Shown one piece after another: positions 4,807 through 39,923 of a stretch of 64,000 nucleotides of DNA (position 1 is its first letter; every line of letters begins with the position of its first letter). The notes under the pieces are model-generated. The model saw only the letters and a list, made by a program, of their open reading frames with translations, was not told where the DNA came from and searched no databases. Source of the DNA: Pseudobdellovibrio sp. (GTDB lineage: Bacteria > Bdellovibrionota > Bdellovibrionia > Bdellovibrionales > Bdellovibrionaceae); contig JAMPXC010000004.1 in assembly GCA_023701385.1 (NCBI GenBank), positions 1-64,000 on the forward strand, written 5' to 3'. The position numbers were made by a program, and so were the translations under genes.

Positions 4807-5256
4807 CTATACTTCGTATCGCAATTTTTTAATATCAGGTTCTTCAGTTGGAATTTCGATGACTTTAATATCTTTCATCTCTTTTACTTTTTCAGAATCA
4901 GTATATGAAACTTTATAAAGTACTTCAGTGATGCCACATTGAAATAATAATCTCATGCACACGACACACGGTGAGTGGGTACAGACCACAGTGCAATCAT
5001 CCATTGAAATGCCATGGCGTGCACAGTTAGCGATAAGATTTTGTTCAGCATGAACCATATACGGATATTTATCAGGGCGTGTATTAGGAAGTTCGTTATC
5101 TTTTGTTCCACGAACAAAACCGTTAAAACCAGTAGCTAGAATAGCTCCTGTCTTATTTGATACAAGCAAGGCGCCTACGTGGGTTTCTGCATCGTGAGAT
5201 CGCTGGGCTACAACCTCGGCTAGATTCATTAAATTGGCTACTTTAGATGGTCTCAT
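4807..5256 (-). CDS. dCMP/cytidine deaminase-family zinc enzyme
   Basis: A 149-residue zinc deaminase of the deoxycytidylate deaminase family (ComEB-like). The catalytic motif HAEQN is followed 30 or so residues later by HSPCVVCMRLL, giving the His-Glu and Cys-x-x-Cys set. GFNGFVRG and the HVGALLV opening are also family landmarks. It probably makes dUMP from dCMP for thymidylate synthesis. I start at ATG 5256; the frame extends to a TTG at 5310, but that extension contains a promoter-like TTGACA and no family similarity. No Shine-Dalgarno precedes ATG 5256, which is discussed as a leaderless candidate. Confidence 0.88.
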   Translation of the reverse strand: MRPSKVANLMNLAEVVAQRSHDAETHVGALLVSNKTGAILATGFNGFVRGTKDNELPNTRPDKYPYMVHAEQNLIANCARHGISMDDCTVVCTHSPCVVCMRLLFQCGITEVLYKVSYTDSEKVKEMKDIKVIEIPTEEPDIKKLRYEV

Positions 5257-5503: not shown

Positions 5504-7054
5504 GTGGAAAATCAAGATGCCCTAGATGCGGCAAAGCGTTTAAAAAAATCAAAAAAAGAAGTTCTTTCACGGTGGGAGTACATTGTACGCAGTGAGTTCA
5601 CCGAGGCGCAGAAAGAAACGAAGCCACATTTGATGGATTCGCTTCCTAAATTTCTAGATCAAGTGATTCAGGCTTTGATGCGAACTGATGGACGCGGTGA
5701 AGATATTGAAAAAATTGAAGAGGTCTCTGAAGAGCATGCTGTTGATCGGGCGACAACAACTCGGTTCACCATCGAACATATTATTCGAGAATATGAGATT
5801 CTTAGAAAAGTGATTTTTGAATTTTTAGAGCAAGAGAAACCTTTGGGGATTCCTGCGCGTGATACAATACTTAATGCTATTCAAGCAGGACAAAGTAAAG
5901 CCACTTCGCAATTTTCAAATATTACGGTTGAGCAAGAGCGTAATTTTAGAAAACAACTCGAAGAAAAAGAGCAGGTGTTTAAAACGATTTTTGAATTGGC
6001 TGCGGCAGGAAAAGCTATTGTCGATGTTTCATCAGGTCGCTTTTTGCAAGTGAATAGACGTTTTTGTGAAATGCTTGGCTATACCCCAGATGAACTTCTA
6101 AAAAAGACAACGGAGGAAATTACACATCCCGACGACAGCAATTTAGTCATTAACAAAATTCCCGAAGATATATCTTTAATTTCCGAAGGTAAAGTTTGGA
6201 GCATTGAAAAACGTTATCTGCAAAAAGACGGAACTCCACTTTGGGTTTTAATTTCCGGAGCCCTTTATCCGGCGATAGCTGATCAACCAGCGCGCGTGAT
6301 TGCGACTGTTTTTGATATCACTGAAAAAAAGCAGATTGAAAATTTAAAAGACCAGTTTATTAATACTTTAAGCCACGACTTACGAACTCCGCTTTCGGTT
6401 ATCGATATGTCAGCGCAACTGCTGCGGCTTAAATCTCAAGATGCGGCTATGGTGTTAAAATTAGCTGATCGTATCTTAGATAATTCAAAACGCTGTGATA
6501 GTATGATTCAAGATTTGTTAGATACCAGCCGCATTCGTGCGGGTCACGTGATGTGGTTACATATAGAACACTGTGACCTTATTTCTATTGTACAAGAAGC
6601 TATAGATGAACTTTCCAGTCTTCACGGTGACCGGTTTATTTTTAATGGTCCAGCATCTGTTAAAGTCTATTGGAGCAAAAAAGGAATTCGCAGAATCATC
6701 GAAAATCTTTGCAGTAACGCTATAAAATACGGTGCTAAAAATTTTCCGGTACTGATTTCAGTGGATGAAGTCGACAGTACGATAAACCTTTCAGTGAAAA
6801 ATCATGGTGAACCTATTCCTAAAGAAAATATGTCAAGTTTGTTTCAACAGTTTTCGCGCACACGCTCCGCAGAATCGAGCGGTACGCTTGGGTGGGGTAT
6901 TGGTCTTACCATCGTTAAAGGATTCACTGAGGCTCACTGTGGTGAAATTAAAGTGCACAGCACTGAACACGATGGAACGATTTTTACGGTCAGTCTTCCT
7001 AGAGATGCGCGTCCTTGTCAGGAAAATCGTATTAATCAACTTAAAAAAAATTAA
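5504..7054 (+). CDS. Orphan RsbRD_N-PAS sensor histidine kinase
   Basis: A soluble 516-residue histidine kinase. Residues 10-135 resemble the RsbRD N-terminal sensor helix bundle (SRWEYIVRSE, EHIIREYEILRKVIFEFLEQ). Residues 155-275 are a PAS domain (LQVNRRFCEMLGYTPDELL). HisKA follows with the phospho-accepting H291 in SHDLRTPL, then an HATPase domain with the N-box ENLCSNAIKYG (400-410) and G2 box GWGIGL (463-468). The G1 box is KNHGEPIP instead of DxGxGI. It has no membrane segment and no receiver, and no response regulator is nearby. The start is GTG 5504; a perfect TATAAT at 5459-5464 may be its -10. The KGG stress gene follows after 94 bp. Confidence 0.92.
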   Translation: MENQDALDAAKRLKKSKKEVLSRWEYIVRSEFTEAQKETKPHLMDSLPKFLDQVIQALMRTDGRGEDIEKIEEVSEEHAVDRATTTRFTIEHIIREYEILRKVIFEFLEQEKPLGIPARDTILNAIQAGQSKATSQFSNITVEQERNFRKQLEEKEQVFKTIFELAAAGKAIVDVSSGRFLQVNRRFCEMLGYTPDELLKKTTEEITHPDDSNLVINKIPEDISLISEGKVWSIEKRYLQKDGTPLWVLISGALYPAIADQPARVIATVFDITEKKQIENLKDQFINTLSHDLRTPLSVIDMSAQLLRLKSQDAAMVLKLADRILDNSKRCDSMIQDLLDTSRIRAGHVMWLHIEHCDLISIVQEAIDELSSLHGDRFIFNGPASVKVYWSKKGIRRIIENLCSNAIKYGAKNFPVLISVDEVDSTINLSVKNHGEPIPKENMSSLFQQFSRTRSAESSGTLGWGIGLTIVKGFTEAHCGEIKVHSTEHDGTIFTVSLPRDARPCQENRINQLKKN

Positions 7055-7771: not shown

Positions 7772-8701
7772 GGCCTCTTTGATTTGTTTTTTTAAATGTT
7801 TATTTAATTCAAGAGCTAAATTCTTATTTTCTAAAAAAATATAAAGCTGAGGATGAATTTTAACGTCTTGCGCCAGCCAGTTTCCGGTTCCGAGGGCTAT
7901 GTGTTTACCATCGGCTATTAAATATTTTGCATGCGAAAACAAATAGGGCCGTCCCCAGTAAATGTCTTTAATGCCGGATGCATTTAAGCGTTTAACTGTC
8001 GAACGATTAGCCCAAATAAAAGGTAGCGCAAAGCTTTGGTGCCGATGAATGAATCCAGTAATTTTAACATTTCGTTGATGGGCTTTAATTAAGGCCTGTT
8101 CAATTTCTTTATGATTAAAAAAGTAAATCGAAAATTCGATGCGTTTTTTGGCGTTATTAATCATGGTGATCAGTTGGTCTTTAAAATCACCATCAGCAGC
8201 AAACGGAGGGTTAAGTGTTATGCCGCCATGTTTTCCGCCGTTCCAAAGATGATCGGTATAGCGGGTAAATTCCTGAGCGATCTTTGGATTATCGATGAGT
8301 AGGTTGGCTTCGTGATTTTTCATGATCGACTGATTGGTTAAATTTGTTGAGCCGAAGAGAATATAACGGCCATCAATACAAAAACCTTTGGCGTGGGTTG
8401 CGCCAAGTTTAATATGAACGCCAGCTGCTTTTAAATACTGAGCGGTCACTTTGTTACGTGACGAAGTTTCGCGAAACCCTTCGGTAAAAAAGCGGATCTT
8501 TAAATGGTCATGGTGTTTTTTCTGCGCTGATTTAAGTTTTTCAGCGATCTTAAATGGGGCAGACCATGTGGCATGTTTGCCCGTAGCACTGCCGATCGCA
8601 AACGAGAAAGAAACGATATCAATACTTTTTTTTGCCTTGCCAATCAGGCGTAACACCTCGGGCAAATAGTTTTGATCGGTGATCAACTGAGTTTTGGCCA
8701 T
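7748..8701 (-). CDS. Phospholipase-D-like (HKD) protein
   Basis: A 317-residue protein with two HKD motifs: THAKGFCIDGRYILFGSTN (first half) and SHAKYLIADGKHIALGTGN (second half). Each is His-x-Lys-x4-Asp, so both halves of a PLD active site are present. Members hydrolyse phosphodiesters in lipids or nucleic acids. No signal peptide is seen with the ATG at 8701 (MAKTQLITDQN), so a cytoplasmic role, possibly nuclease-like, is likely. The frame extends to 8776 but would cross the start of the divergent epimerase-like gene at 8765, so the shorter start is preferred. Confidence 0.86.
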   Translation of the reverse strand: MAKTQLITDQNYLPEVLRLIGKAKKSIDIVSFSFAIGSATGKHATWSAPFKIAEKLKSAQKKHHDHLKIRFFTEGFRETSSRNKVTAQYLKAAGVHIKLGATHAKGFCIDGRYILFGSTNLTNQSIMKNHEANLLIDNPKIAQEFTRYTDHLWNGGKHGGITLNPPFAADGDFKDQLITMINNAKKRIEFSIYFFNHKEIEQALIKAHQRNVKITGFIHRHQSFALPFIWANRSTVKRLNASGIKDIYWGRPYLFSHAKYLIADGKHIALGTGNWLAQDVKIHPQLYIFLENKNLALELNKHLKKQIKEAKKVKGDK

Positions 8702-10340: not shown

Positions 10341-11543
10341 ATGTTTAAACTAAAAACCACTCTTGTGATCGCGTTTGCGATCTTCGCGACTACTTTTGCC
10401 AGAGCCGAAGGCTCTGCTTTTTCCGGCGTAGAAGATTCTTCTGCTCTGAAAGAATGGACCTTCTTAGTGTTCATCAACGGCCACAACAACTTATCTTCAT
10501 TTGCGGATATGAATATCCGCGATATGGAAAAAACGGGTTCGTCAGATAAAGTGAACTTAGTCGTTGAATGGGGTTCGCAGTCATCAAAAATGACAAAACG
10601 TCTATTAGTTAAAAAATCAACGAATCCAAATAAAGTGACATCTCCATCAGTGATGGAAATGCCAAACCACGATATGGGTGATTATAGAAATCTAATCGAC
10701 TTCGTTGCTTGGGGCGTAAAAAACTATCCAGCAAAACGTTACTTCGTAGCGGTTTGGAATCACGGATCTGGCTGGCACAGAACTGGTAAAGTGTCTGCAC
10801 GTGACATCTCATTTGATGATAACACAGGTAACGTGATCACAACTGAGCAATTAGGTACTGCTATGCAAGAGTCAGCTAAGATCATTGGCCGCAATGTAGA
10901 TATTTACGGTTCTGATGCTTGCTTAATGCAAATGATCGAAGTGGGCGCTGAGTTCAACGGTTCAGTTGACTATATGGTTGGTTCACAGGAATTAGAACCA
11001 GGTGAAGGTTGGCCGTATGCTCCATTCGTAAAACAATGGATCGCTAACCCAACAATGACGGCAGCAGAAGTATCAGTATTATTATCTAAAGAATACCAAA
11101 AATCTTACGATGGCGGTGTATACGGTAACAAACCAGATACAACATTCTCAGCTGTGAATCTTCAAAAATTACCGGCTTTATACGCTTCACTTACAACGTT
11201 ACAACAAAGTTTACGTGGTTTAGGTGCTTCACAATTTGCTGAAGTTAAAAAAGCGATCAATAACTCAATGAATTTCTACTACTCTGATTATGTCGACTTA
11301 GGTGATTTTTTAAATAGAACACAATCTTTAGGTTTTTCACGCGCGATCGAAGGCTTGTCAGCTTCTCAATCAGCTTTAAAAGAAGTGGTTCTTACAGCTG
11401 ATAACGGTGATAATTTCTTAAAAGCATCAGGTTTATCAATCTGGTTACCAACTTACCAATCGAGCGAATTAAACCGCTACGATAATTTACAATTCAGCAA
11501 AACAACTGGCTGGAACGAATTAGTTCGCCAGGTTCTTCGCTAA
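10341..11543 (+). CDS. Clostripain-family (C11) cysteine protease
   Basis: A 400-residue secreted protease. A Sec signal peptide (residues 1-22, ending FARAEG) precedes a caspase-like C11 fold. The opening strand is WTFLVFINGHNNLSSFA, the catalytic His lies in AVWNHGSGWH, and the catalytic Cys in DIYGSDACLMQM. Clostripains cut after Arg (or Lys) and are often autoactivated. The segment GSQELEPGEGWPY also matches the family. Ribosome-binding site GGAGGG precedes the ATG by about 7 bp. It is monocistronic: a 136-bp gap upstream and a hairpin terminator downstream. A secreted protease would fit a predatory or saprophytic lifestyle (inference). Confidence 0.92.
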   Translation: MFKLKTTLVIAFAIFATTFARAEGSAFSGVEDSSALKEWTFLVFINGHNNLSSFADMNIRDMEKTGSSDKVNLVVEWGSQSSKMTKRLLVKKSTNPNKVTSPSVMEMPNHDMGDYRNLIDFVAWGVKNYPAKRYFVAVWNHGSGWHRTGKVSARDISFDDNTGNVITTEQLGTAMQESAKIIGRNVDIYGSDACLMQMIEVGAEFNGSVDYMVGSQELEPGEGWPYAPFVKQWIANPTMTAAEVSVLLSKEYQKSYDGGVYGNKPDTTFSAVNLQKLPALYASLTTLQQSLRGLGASQFAEVKKAINNSMNFYYSDYVDLGDFLNRTQSLGFSRAIEGLSASQSALKEVVLTADNGDNFLKASGLSIWLPTYQSSELNRYDNLQFSKTTGWNELVRQVLR

Positions 11544-36619: not shown

Positions 36620-36711
36620 GCCTCGGTGGTGAAATTGGTAGACACACAGGACTTAAAATCCTGAGCTTCGTTAACACGGGCGTGCCGGTTCAAGTCCGGC
36701 CCGAGGCACCA
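36620..36711 (+). tRNA. tRNA-Leu (TAA)
   Basis: Class II tRNA of 92 nt with encoded CCA. Acceptor stem GCCTCGG / CCGAGGC, anticodon stem CAGGA / TCCTG around CTTAAAA with anticodon TAA at 36654-36656, a long variable arm, and T-loop TTCAAGT. Its 3' end and flank are duplicated at 38103-38120. Confidence 0.96.
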
Positions 36712-36720
36712 TTTCTTTAG
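36703..36720 (+). repeat. tRNA-Leu 3' end and flank (copy 1)
   Basis: The 18 bp covering the last nine bases of tRNA-Leu and its flank match 38103-38120 at 17 of 18 positions in direct orientation. With the duplicated terminators at 36749 and 38127 they bracket a histidine-kinase gene, an attL/attR-like layout. Confidence 0.8.
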
Positions 36721-36748
36721 AAGAATGGTTTCGCCAAAACTTAAAATC

Positions 36749-36780
36749 ATCCCAAGCCTCAAAACTTGGGATTTTTTTTG
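36749..36780 (+). terminator. Terminator of tRNA-Leu (copy 1)
   Basis: Stem ATCCCAAG / CTTGGGAT (36749-36756, 36765-36772), 8-nt loop CCTCAAAA, then eight or more T. The 32-bp unit recurs at 38127-38158 with one difference, in the loop. Confidence 0.92.
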
Positions 36781-36862
36781 TCTAAAAAACGTCAAATGGC
36801 GTACCCCTTGCAATCTTCGTTTTGAATTACAAAACGATGTAGCAGGAGGCTTCTTGGTTGAT

Positions 36863-37999
36863 ATGGACGTAAAAAGTACTCATTCAGGCGTTGAACAAAA
36901 AAACGCTGTCGTGCATTTGGGGCAAATCAAAGAAAAAATTATGGGAATATGGGAGTCTCGTGTTCGCAGCAATGTTTCTTCTGCTACTGAAAAAGAACAG
37001 CTTGTGTTGCGTTACATGCTGCCTGAGCTACTTGAAAATCTGACGGCCAACTTATCCACCGAAACCACAGAGGTGGCCGAAAATTCTTTTCAAAGAGCCG
37101 GTGATATAGGAGCTGAACATGGCGAACAGCGCGGAAATTTGAATGATTACACTATTTCTCAGGTTCTTCACGAATATCGAATTTTACGTCAGGTTATTTT
37201 TGAAGTTTTAGAAATGGAAAAACTCTATAGCTCGAAAATTCGAGATAGCATTCTTAACGTGGTTGACGAGGGGATCCAAAAAGCCATTGAGCGGTTCACG
37301 GTTGTAAGATCAAGAGAACTTGAACAAAGTAATAAAGATCTAGAGCATTTCGCCTCAATTGCTGCGCATGATTTAAAGTCACCATTAGCAACTATTTCAG
37401 GTTACATGGAACTGTTGGATGAAAGTTTGAAAAGAAAAATAGATTTCGAAGATGCTAAATACATAAGTACAATCAAAAGGTCTGCTGCTGCTATGACCGT
37501 ATTGATTGATCGTATTTTAGAGTATTCAAGTGTAGGCAGAAAGTTAGGGGCCTTTAGCCGCGTTTCAACAGATGTCATTGTCCGTGAAGTGGTTGAAAGC
37601 CTCGACAGTCTAATTGAAACTACGGGAGCGAAAATTATTTTTCAGGATTTGCCAACAGTGGTAGCTGAATCTGCTCTTTTGTCACAACTTTTTCAAAACC
37701 TGATCAGTAATGCCGTCAAATTTCGGGATGAGAATCGTACCCCTATCATTCGAATCGAAGCTAAAGAAGAACCAGATAAATGGATCTTCTGTGTTAAAGA
37801 TAACGGTTTAGGCATAAAGCTTGAAGATAGAGAGAATCTTTTCACACTCTTTAAAAAGGTCCACAGTAAAAGTTCGCACAAAGGCTATGGTATTGGGTTG
37901 GCAACGGCGCGAAAGATTGTTGAACTACACGGTGGAACAATTTGGATCGAGTCGCAACCTGGAATTGGATCAACTTTTTTCTTTACCATTGAGAAATAA
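36863..37999 (+). CDS. Orphan RsbRD_N sensor histidine kinase located between tRNA-Leu repeats
   Basis: A soluble 378-residue histidine kinase. Residues 20-150 are an RsbRD_N-like helix bundle related to that of the kinase at 5504 (LHEYRILRQVIFEVLEMEK). There is no PAS. HisKA carries H169 in IAAHDLKSPLATISGY, and the ATPase domain has an intact N-box (FQNLISNAVKF), G1 DNGLGI (313-318) and G2 GYGIGL (341-346), close to the phytochrome-like kinase type. ATG 36863 follows AGGAGG at 36844-36849 by 13 bp; TTG 36854 would have better spacing. No regulator is adjacent. The gene is bracketed by duplicated tRNA-Leu 3'-end sequence, suggesting acquisition or a local rearrangement. Confidence 0.9.
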   Translation: MDVKSTHSGVEQKNAVVHLGQIKEKIMGIWESRVRSNVSSATEKEQLVLRYMLPELLENLTANLSTETTEVAENSFQRAGDIGAEHGEQRGNLNDYTISQVLHEYRILRQVIFEVLEMEKLYSSKIRDSILNVVDEGIQKAIERFTVVRSRELEQSNKDLEHFASIAAHDLKSPLATISGYMELLDESLKRKIDFEDAKYISTIKRSAAAMTVLIDRILEYSSVGRKLGAFSRVSTDVIVREVVESLDSLIETTGAKIIFQDLPTVVAESALLSQLFQNLISNAVKFRDENRTPIIRIEAKEEPDKWIFCVKDNGLGIKLEDRENLFTLFKKVHSKSSHKGYGIGLATARKIVELHGGTIWIESQPGIGSTFFFTIEK

Positions 38000-38102
38000 A
38001 GTTCGAGTTTGACTGGTAAGGATAGGTAAAAAAAAGCAAGCTACTGTCTATTCGATTTTAAGCGCAGATCTCAAGGATCGCGGTTCGATAATCGTTTAGC
38101 AA

Positions 38103-38120
38103 GAGGCACTATTTCTTTAG
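38103..38120 (+). repeat. Duplicated tRNA-Leu 3' end (copy 2)
   Basis: 17/18 identical to 36703-36720. Just upstream a T-arm-like GGTTCGATAATC (38082-38093) and a D-loop-like CTGGTAAGG (from about 38015) may be remains of a decayed tRNA, but the rest does not fold, so this is weak. Confidence 0.8.
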
Positions 38121-38126
38121 TAATTT

Positions 38127-38158
38127 ATCCCAAGCCTTAAAACTTGGGATTTTTTTTG
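38127..38158 (+). terminator. Terminator (copy 2, downstream of the kinase)
   Basis: Same 32-bp unit as 36749-36780 with one base change in the loop: ATCCCAAG stem, loop CCTTAAAA, T-run. It now serves as terminator for the kinase gene that lies between the two copies. Confidence 0.9.
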
Positions 38159-38173
38159 CCCAAAATCTTAAGC

Positions 38174-38813: not shown

Positions 38814-39923
38814 ATGTCGACGATTTCTATACCAGCCACGTTCATGCGTGGCGGAACAAGCAAAGCTCTTATGATTAAAGCCGAAAATTTACCGGCCGAT
38901 AAAACCAAATGGACTGATTTACTTTGTTCAGCCATGGGAAGCCCTGATGAGTTTGGCAGGCAACTTAACGGCATGGGCGGGGGAGTATCGTCGGTTTCAA
39001 AAGTTTGCGTTGTATCGAAATCAGAAAGAGCTGACGCCGATATTGATTTTACTTTTGTGCAAGTGATGGTTCATGAACGTACGCTAGATCTGTCAGGTAA
39101 TTGTGGCAACATGCTATCAGCCGTTGGACCCTTTGCTGTTGATGAAGGGTTAGTTGAAGTAAAAGGTGATGAGGCCTTTGTTAGAATTTATAACACCAAC
39201 ACGAAAAAAATTATGCATTCGCGCTTTCCTGTTAAAGATGGTCAAAGTGTTTATAAAGGTGATTTACAAATTCCAGGTGTCTCTGGAGCAGGGGCTCCGA
39301 TCCGTCTTGATTTTATTGACCCTGCAGGCGCTACTACAGGAAAGTTTTTACCAACGGGGTCTGTGATTGATACTTTAACTTTGGCAGACGGCAGTCAAAT
39401 TCAGGCTTCGCTTTTTGATGTCGCTAATGCGTGCGTGATCATTCGTGCCAGTGACGTAGGTCTTACGGGCTACGAACAGCCTGAAGAAATTGAAGTGCGT
39501 AAAAATATCTTAGCAAAACTTTCAGAAATTCGTATTGCGGGATCACTGGCTATGGGAATAAGTAAGACCCGTGAAGAAGCCCTAAGTCGTGGCCAAGTTC
39601 CTTTTATTGCATTTTTATCAAAGGCTAAAACTAAAGACATAGATTTTAATGCGCGAGTTATTTCCGCAGGGCAGCCGCACAAAGCACTTCCGTTAACGAT
39701 TACCCTTTGTCTTGCAGTAGCGGCAAAAACAAAAGGATCGATTGCTTTTGAGATGATGAATTCGCAGGGCAATGAACAGATCAGAATCGGTATGCCATCG
39801 GGTGTTTTGACAGCGGGTGCGGTGATCGAAGAAAAAATGGGTGTGACAAAGCCATTGTCTGGCGCCTTTTTTAGGACCGCCCGAAAACTATTTAAAGGCG
39901 AAGTCTACGCCGAGCTAAATTAA
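38814..39923 (+). CDS. PrpF-family isomerase
   Basis: A 369-residue cytoplasmic protein of the PrpF / 4-oxalomesaconate tautomerase family (diaminopimelate-epimerase-like fold). Start PATFMRGGTSKALMI is the family signature, with DEFGRQLNGMGGGVSSVSKV, LSGNCGNMLSAVGPFA (active-site Cys loop) and PSGVLTAG later. Members isomerise tricarboxylate-like double bonds (2-methylaconitate, oxalomesaconate). No methylcitrate-cycle genes are nearby, so the substrate is open. A weak TTGCCC-N18-TACACT promoter precedes it. It ends overlapping the convergent small gene by 4 bp. Confidence 0.9.
   Translation: MSTISIPATFMRGGTSKALMIKAENLPADKTKWTDLLCSAMGSPDEFGRQLNGMGGGVSSVSKVCVVSKSERADADIDFTFVQVMVHERTLDLSGNCGNMLSAVGPFAVDEGLVEVKGDEAFVRIYNTNTKKIMHSRFPVKDGQSVYKGDLQIPGVSGAGAPIRLDFIDPAGATTGKFLPTGSVIDTLTLADGSQIQASLFDVANACVIIRASDVGLTGYEQPEEIEVRKNILAKLSEIRIAGSLAMGISKTREEALSRGQVPFIAFLSKAKTKDIDFNARVISAGQPHKALPLTITLCLAVAAKTKGSIAFEMMNSQGNEQIRIGMPSGVLTAGAVIEEKMGVTKPLSGAFFRTARKLFKGEVYAELN

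Follow-up and report, generated by a model that had tools for sequence, protein, structure and literature searches.

The locus described here raises the question how a single histidine kinase gene came to lie between two copies of a tRNA-Leu 3′ end, each followed by the same terminator, and what kind of element such a unit represents. The window, i.e. the whole analysed stretch of 64,000 nucleotides, belongs to a Pseudobdellovibrio genome (G000). A first-pass annotation had read the layout as an insertion at the tRNA 3′ end, and this reading is retained here.

The window locus

36620–36711, + strand: tRNA-Leu(TAA), the landing site (ARAGORN; Rfam tRNA, 61.7 bits)
36703–36711, + strand: left copy of the shared core, the last 9 tRNA bases GAGGCACCA (repeat comparison)
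36712–36780, + strand: trailer of the tRNA with its intrinsic terminator, putative left cassette end (terminator scan; duplicated at 38112–38158)
36863–37999, + strand: histidine kinase RsbRD_N-HisKA-HATPase_c, 378 aa (Pfam, translation, kinase structures matched by sequence)
38052–38111, + strand: site R, with the constant element end (38052–38102) and the tRNA-end core GAGGCACTA (38103–38111) (model matches)
38112–38158, + strand: second copy of trailer and terminator, putatively the original one displaced (31/32 to 36749–36780; terminator scan)

Both repeats of the original description were verified, namely the 18-bp pair 36703–36720 and 38103–38120 (17/18), which consists of the last nine tRNA bases and the first bases of the trailer, and the terminator duplication (31/32 over 36749–36780 and 38127–38158). 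The terminators share an identical 8-pair stem (36749–36772 and 38127–38150, terminator scan) within a duplicated block of 44 bp (36744–36787 and 38122–38165, 89% identity). Their trailers are unequal by a 22-nt gap, with 28 nt preceding the left terminator and 6 nt the right one. The right repeat starts about 50 bp earlier than first noted, at ~38052, and this extra sequence is missing on the left side. That the window repeat is not due to chance follows from its match with Bdellovibrio sp. qaytius (G013) as query, which extends over 105 bp with 89% identity (E 6e-32). In the Rfam scan of the window locus the tRNA was the sole match. Terminal inverted repeats and a transposase, as in transposons or IS elements, are both absent from the window unit: the repeat comparison found no inverted pair at its ends and the ORF and Pfam searches no transposase. 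An integrase is likewise lacking inside the unit (ORFs, Pfam), as had been stated before.

The single gene between the repeats is an RsbRD_N kinase, as annotated, with an intact ORF (E-values in Pfam: HATPase_c 2e-25, HisKA 1.7e-12, RsbRD_N 5.8e-6). Its start is likely the ATG at 36863, which is preceded by the ribosome binding site AGGAGG (36844–36849); the ORF start at 36725 is disfavoured because translation would cross the terminator. The promoter scan detected no promoter upstream of the kinase. The cargo is probably transcribed from its own promoter, since the terminator parts it from the tRNA and cargo genes in general point both ways.

The same locus in related genomes

The genus comparison comprised the window genome and 13 other genomes. 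Upstream of the tRNA the congeners keep a membrane protein, an IMPDH/GMP-reductase-family gene and a MurI-like gene, and an IMPDH-family and a MurI-like gene also flank the window unit. The DNA downstream of the tRNA is different in each congener examined. Presence of the kinase at this tRNA in all relatives had been named as the finding that would favour an old duplication, and none of the 13 congeners has a comparable gene there. This absence speaks against an old duplication, and by comparison with these 13 congeners the kinase is not an old resident of the tRNA locus. Its closest match within the genus (37% identity) is found in a different place with no tRNA within 1.5 kb. The suggestion that the same kinase might occur at other tRNA genes was not borne out, as the four best homologues (35–39%) have no tRNA within 1.5 kb. 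An empty site for the window unit was not found among the congeners.

In the closest relative, Bdellovibrio sp. qaytius, CP025734.1, three more copies of the right repeat follow the tRNA-Leu at intervals of ~1–4 kb, and one of them is 89% identical to window positions 38055–38158. Just 3′ of the window unit a PrpF-family gene (38814–39923) is located that is absent from all other genus genomes examined; given this genus-unique gene, the variable region may extend past R.

Anatomy of site R

Site R is ~60 bp long and comprises ~51 bp of non-tRNA sequence followed by the last nine tRNA bases GAGGCAC[C/T]A, behind which the duplicated terminator is situated. Its sequence includes the GTTCGATAATCG block, and its consensus Tc.A..At.GCaGTTCGAtAaTCGtCcac.a.GGGG is constant across loci with different tRNAs. 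When R was compared with its own tRNA (69 sites), the last eight bases (GGGCACCA) agreed at 80–96% per position and the next four at 20–53%. Because the tRNA match is limited to these last eight bases and the consensus remains constant across tRNAs, R is to be regarded, on sequence grounds, as the end of an element with a core of ~8 bp in common with the tRNA and not as a decayed tRNA.

The 13-base tail of R fits the tRNA of its own locus more closely than permuted ones (0/2000), and the same holds for the trailer of R and that of its own tRNA (0/2000). The own trailer is the best match for 18 of 45 R trailers, and many are unlike the local tRNA trailer. At the single tRNA-Ala locus the R tail reads CCCACCA and is nearer to the TCCACCA of that tRNA. 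The terminator behind the tRNA is repeated behind many R copies, and a terminator follows within 70 nt at 25 of 69 sites compared with 21 of 1035 random stretches. No folding of R beyond chance was detected at the 69 sites (folding-energy z-scores averaged −0.13 on one strand and −0.12 on the other), and the consensus fold of six copies showed no compensatory changes.

Distribution of R

A sequence model of R was built from six copies and then from 22, and matches were accepted at E ≤ 1e-3 per genome. With this model R was found in 74 of 369 Bdellovibrionota genomes, representing 44 of 182 genera, often with 2–7 copies that are 0.35–6 kb apart. The earlier proposal of a minimal relic or passively captured gene is not supported: the right end of the window unit is a dedicated site common to more than 100 other places in these 74 genomes, so that the unit is a member of a recurrent cassette family and not a lone relic.

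The inspected set consisted of 34 fetched loci with 69 R copies. A same-strand tRNA was present upstream at 22 of the 34 loci (12 tRNA-Leu with the anticodons TAA, TAG, CAG and GAG, 9 tRNA-Phe and 1 tRNA-Ala); by our own estimate of about one tRNA per 80 kb, both strands taken together, chance alone would place a tRNA on the same strand within ~6 kb at about 4% of loci. Among the remaining loci six are cut by contig ends and five have no tRNA within 7.7–12 kb.

Outside the phylum, nine R copies occur in an Acidobacteria MAG (G141), and 395 other Acidobacteriota genomes, which serve as negative control, gave only three weak matches. The nine R-like sites of this MAG (L146–L150) have the tails GCCCCGCCA or GCTCCACCA, and behind several of them the same terminator recurs. 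The array contigs of the MAG showed no tRNA, which is counted against the main model, as are the five loci with no tRNA within 7.7–12 kb, the many R trailers unlike the local tRNA trailer and the negative promoter scan for the kinase. Searches in phages, plasmids and viral contigs yielded no match to R, and core matches in Nitrosomonas, Bacillus and Caballeronia from a genome-wide pattern scan look like chance.

Units, cargo and signs of mobility

The units (56 measured) range from 346 to 6153 bp with a median of ~1.3 kb. Each holds one gene or a few, unrelated to one another; 78 genes share the orientation of the tRNA and 64 have the opposite one. Cargo families include GNATs, methyltransferases, regulators, hydrolases, glyoxalases and toxin–antitoxin pairs besides many unknowns. 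Behind tRNA-Leu, tRNA-Phe and, in one case, tRNA-Ala such units are repeatedly met, either alone or in arrays.

Synteny from the upstream side ends at the tRNA, stopping 8–39 nt past it. Thus, G184 and G186, which represent two species, are 76% identical in a 7.1-kb alignment that ends 39 nt behind tRNA-Phe, and a third species (G187) shares 78% with G184 over 8.8 kb, ending 8 nt past tRNA-Phe. The tRNA end and trailer of G184 are identical at 55 of 56 nt (98%) to the sequence after the first R of G186, a figure to be read with the caveat that the trailer is more conserved than background and that another unit stands behind it in G184. Approximately, G184 can thus be considered as the empty site of the 2.6-kb G186 unit; this is the clearest such pair and belongs to another genus than that of the window. 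Whole units with edges at R are shared between genera. A complete GFA cassette is common to G173 and G255 from R to R, one unit is duplicated R-to-R in G173, and a toxin–antitoxin-like pair (87% and 81% aa identity) occurs at different positions in arrays of two genera.

Proposed mechanism and search for the recombinase

We consider it probable (about 0.7) that the kinase is cargo of a small mobile cassette, composed of trailer and terminator, one or more genes, and a site R that ends in the last bases of the tRNA, which was inserted site-specifically. The family of such small gene cassettes, which in predators and related bacteria insert at the 3′ terminus of tRNA-Leu and tRNA-Phe genes, is apparently undescribed. 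In the proposed pathway a circular cassette would recombine inside the ~8 bp shared by R and tRNA. The tRNA sequence would be kept and would acquire the terminator of the cassette, the old trailer would be displaced behind R, and repeated insertion at one tRNA would lead to an array. In the simplest reading trailer and terminator constitute the left cassette end.

A reaction of the tyrosine-recombinase type on double-stranded DNA is suggested with moderate confidence by the 8-bp shared core, which has the expected size of a tyrosine recombinase overlap, together with the unstructured flanks. An attC-like single-strand reaction is unlikely because R is not folded beyond chance on either strand. 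Since all units but one have no recognisable recombinase, the enzyme presumably acts in trans.

Apart from one unit of G061 no R-linked recombinase was identified. This genome holds the only intact integrase among ~57 units, the cargo of which was not listed individually in every case. In 19 R-bearing genomes Phage_integrase matches near arrays were restricted, among the matches listed, to G061, G202 and G181. The G061 unit (G061:C1:474204-485189; L206/L241) extends over 10.9 kb between tRNA-Leu(TAG) and R and encodes a 310-aa tyrosine recombinase, a JAB-domain protein and HTH genes, with its terminator duplicated at 41 of 41 positions; it is possibly an autonomous or helper element. As the general recombinase of the family its integrase was rejected, for the distribution of its relatives does not follow that of R, and several of these relatives are found by tRNA-Arg or tRNA-Ser without R. 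Tandem pairs of tyrosine recombinases with no detectable R nearby are present in G018 (C1:1256633-1258274) and G202 (C51 and C110); they include relatives of the G061 integrase, with identities of 64–67% and 47–48%, respectively. When recombinases from eight R-bearing genomes were clustered in a partial comparison, six of these genomes shared XerC-like and XerD-like clusters, and no other widely shared cluster emerged; the g84 genomes fell outside the Xer clusters, and there the motif filter missed several candidates.

Alternative explanations

The arrays might be relics of integrase-bearing islands, each R being an attR, the units deletion leftovers and the constant part the attP arm of one integrase family. 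Islands in general are known to stack at tRNA genes, the 10.9-kb G061 unit holds an intact enzyme between tRNA-Leu(TAG) and R, and ordinary 60–70-nt duplicates of the tRNA-Leu 3′ end are present in G003, G009 and G010 at or near the same tRNA. Nevertheless we regard this origin as unlikely, as the units are consistently small, with nothing missing between terminator and R, intact ones are shared or duplicated R-to-R, the only integrase remnant found is a fragment beyond R in G202, and relatives of the G061 integrase reside by tRNA-Arg and tRNA-Ser in places without R.

Growth of the arrays without a dedicated recombinase, via homologous recombination among the repeats (terminators and copies of R), would be consistent with terminators being alike within a locus and with near-identical neighbouring units (93% in L197; unit ends 95.6% in L191). 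Such recombination may well be additionally at work, but as the sole process it is improbable because it leaves the placement at tRNA 3′ ends and the first entry into an R-free site unexplained. R might also have arisen by decay of a tRNA gene duplicated in tandem long ago; in favour are a T-loop-like GTTCGA, the tRNA-like end and some resemblance of the window R to an anticodon loop. This origin is very hard to reconcile with the constant part, which does not change between tRNA-Leu, tRNA-Phe and tRNA-Ala loci of different families and is unlike each of these tRNAs; moreover, neither ARAGORN nor Rfam detects a tRNA at R. Site-specific insertion of a cassette thus remains the preferred explanation.

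Relation to known systems

Integrons serve as the textbook case of bacteria accumulating single-gene cassettes at one site, and the present arrays resemble them in having tandem units of one to few genes, a shared end site, one primary site, and toxin–antitoxin and GNAT cargo. Small tandem units with an end site are evident here (56 units). In contrast with integrons, no attC hairpin is formed at the 69 sites, the shared core is GGGCACCA instead of the GTTRRRY crossover core, and no intI stands beside the primary site among the matches listed for the 19 R-bearing genomes. A tRNA 3′ end takes the place of attI beside intI as primary site, the units bring a terminator, their cargo lies in both orientations and, but for G061, G202 and G181 among the matches listed, no integrase gene is nearby.

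tRNA islands, tycheposons and phage satellites also insert at tRNA 3′ ends with preservation of the tRNA, as observed here, repeatedly at one tRNA and with hypervariable sequence downstream. These elements are described as kilobases to tens of kilobases in size, encoding a tyrosine recombinase of their own and bounded by a longer repeat of the tRNA, whereas the units described here are ~1.3 kb in size, have no recombinase (none in the window unit; an integrase in one among ~57 units) and combine ~8 bp of tRNA with a constant element end of 40–50 bp. A further likeness exists to the p-dif (Xer) modules of Acinetobacter, which are small, recombinase-free modules (PMC12907356) presumably moved in trans by a host enzyme; these are not known to be tRNA-anchored, however, and R shows no visible 28-bp Xer site (judged by eye).

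A search of mostly open-access literature, directed at the motif, at cassette arrays linked to tRNA genes and at integrons in Bdellovibrio, gave no description of such a system. An IntegronFinder scan of Bacteriovorax sp. As-1 reports no attC or integron arrays (PMC12642874). We tentatively put forward, at somewhat less than even odds, a separate class in which the tRNA 3′ end would be the landing site, R the cassette site, a dedicated or host recombinase would act in trans and a replacement terminator would keep the tRNA working; this would be an integron analogue unrelated to integrons, distributed across the Bdellovibrionota and reaching into the Acidobacteria. The data point to a second, unrelated stockpiling route in a predator phylum, anchored on an essential tRNA gene. 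R offers a 45–60-bp handle with which cassettes can be located across genomes, their gene pool catalogued and the recombinase sought.

Further repeats at the tRNA-Leu loci

The 60–70-nt tRNA-Leu(TAA) 3′ duplicates, which are of the ordinary attR type without R (L064, L065, L067), are located downstream of the same tRNA in G003 and G010 and on another contig in G009. The G003 unit with such a duplicate contains serine-recombinase fragments. The array of Bdellovibrio sp. qaytius (L063) harbours a second repeat, a hairpin of the form AAAACGCACTGG...AGTGCGTTTT, in four copies between cargo genes:

~5116–5175, 6393–6452, 8346–8392 and 10900–10946, reverse-complement coordinates of L063: hairpin repeats
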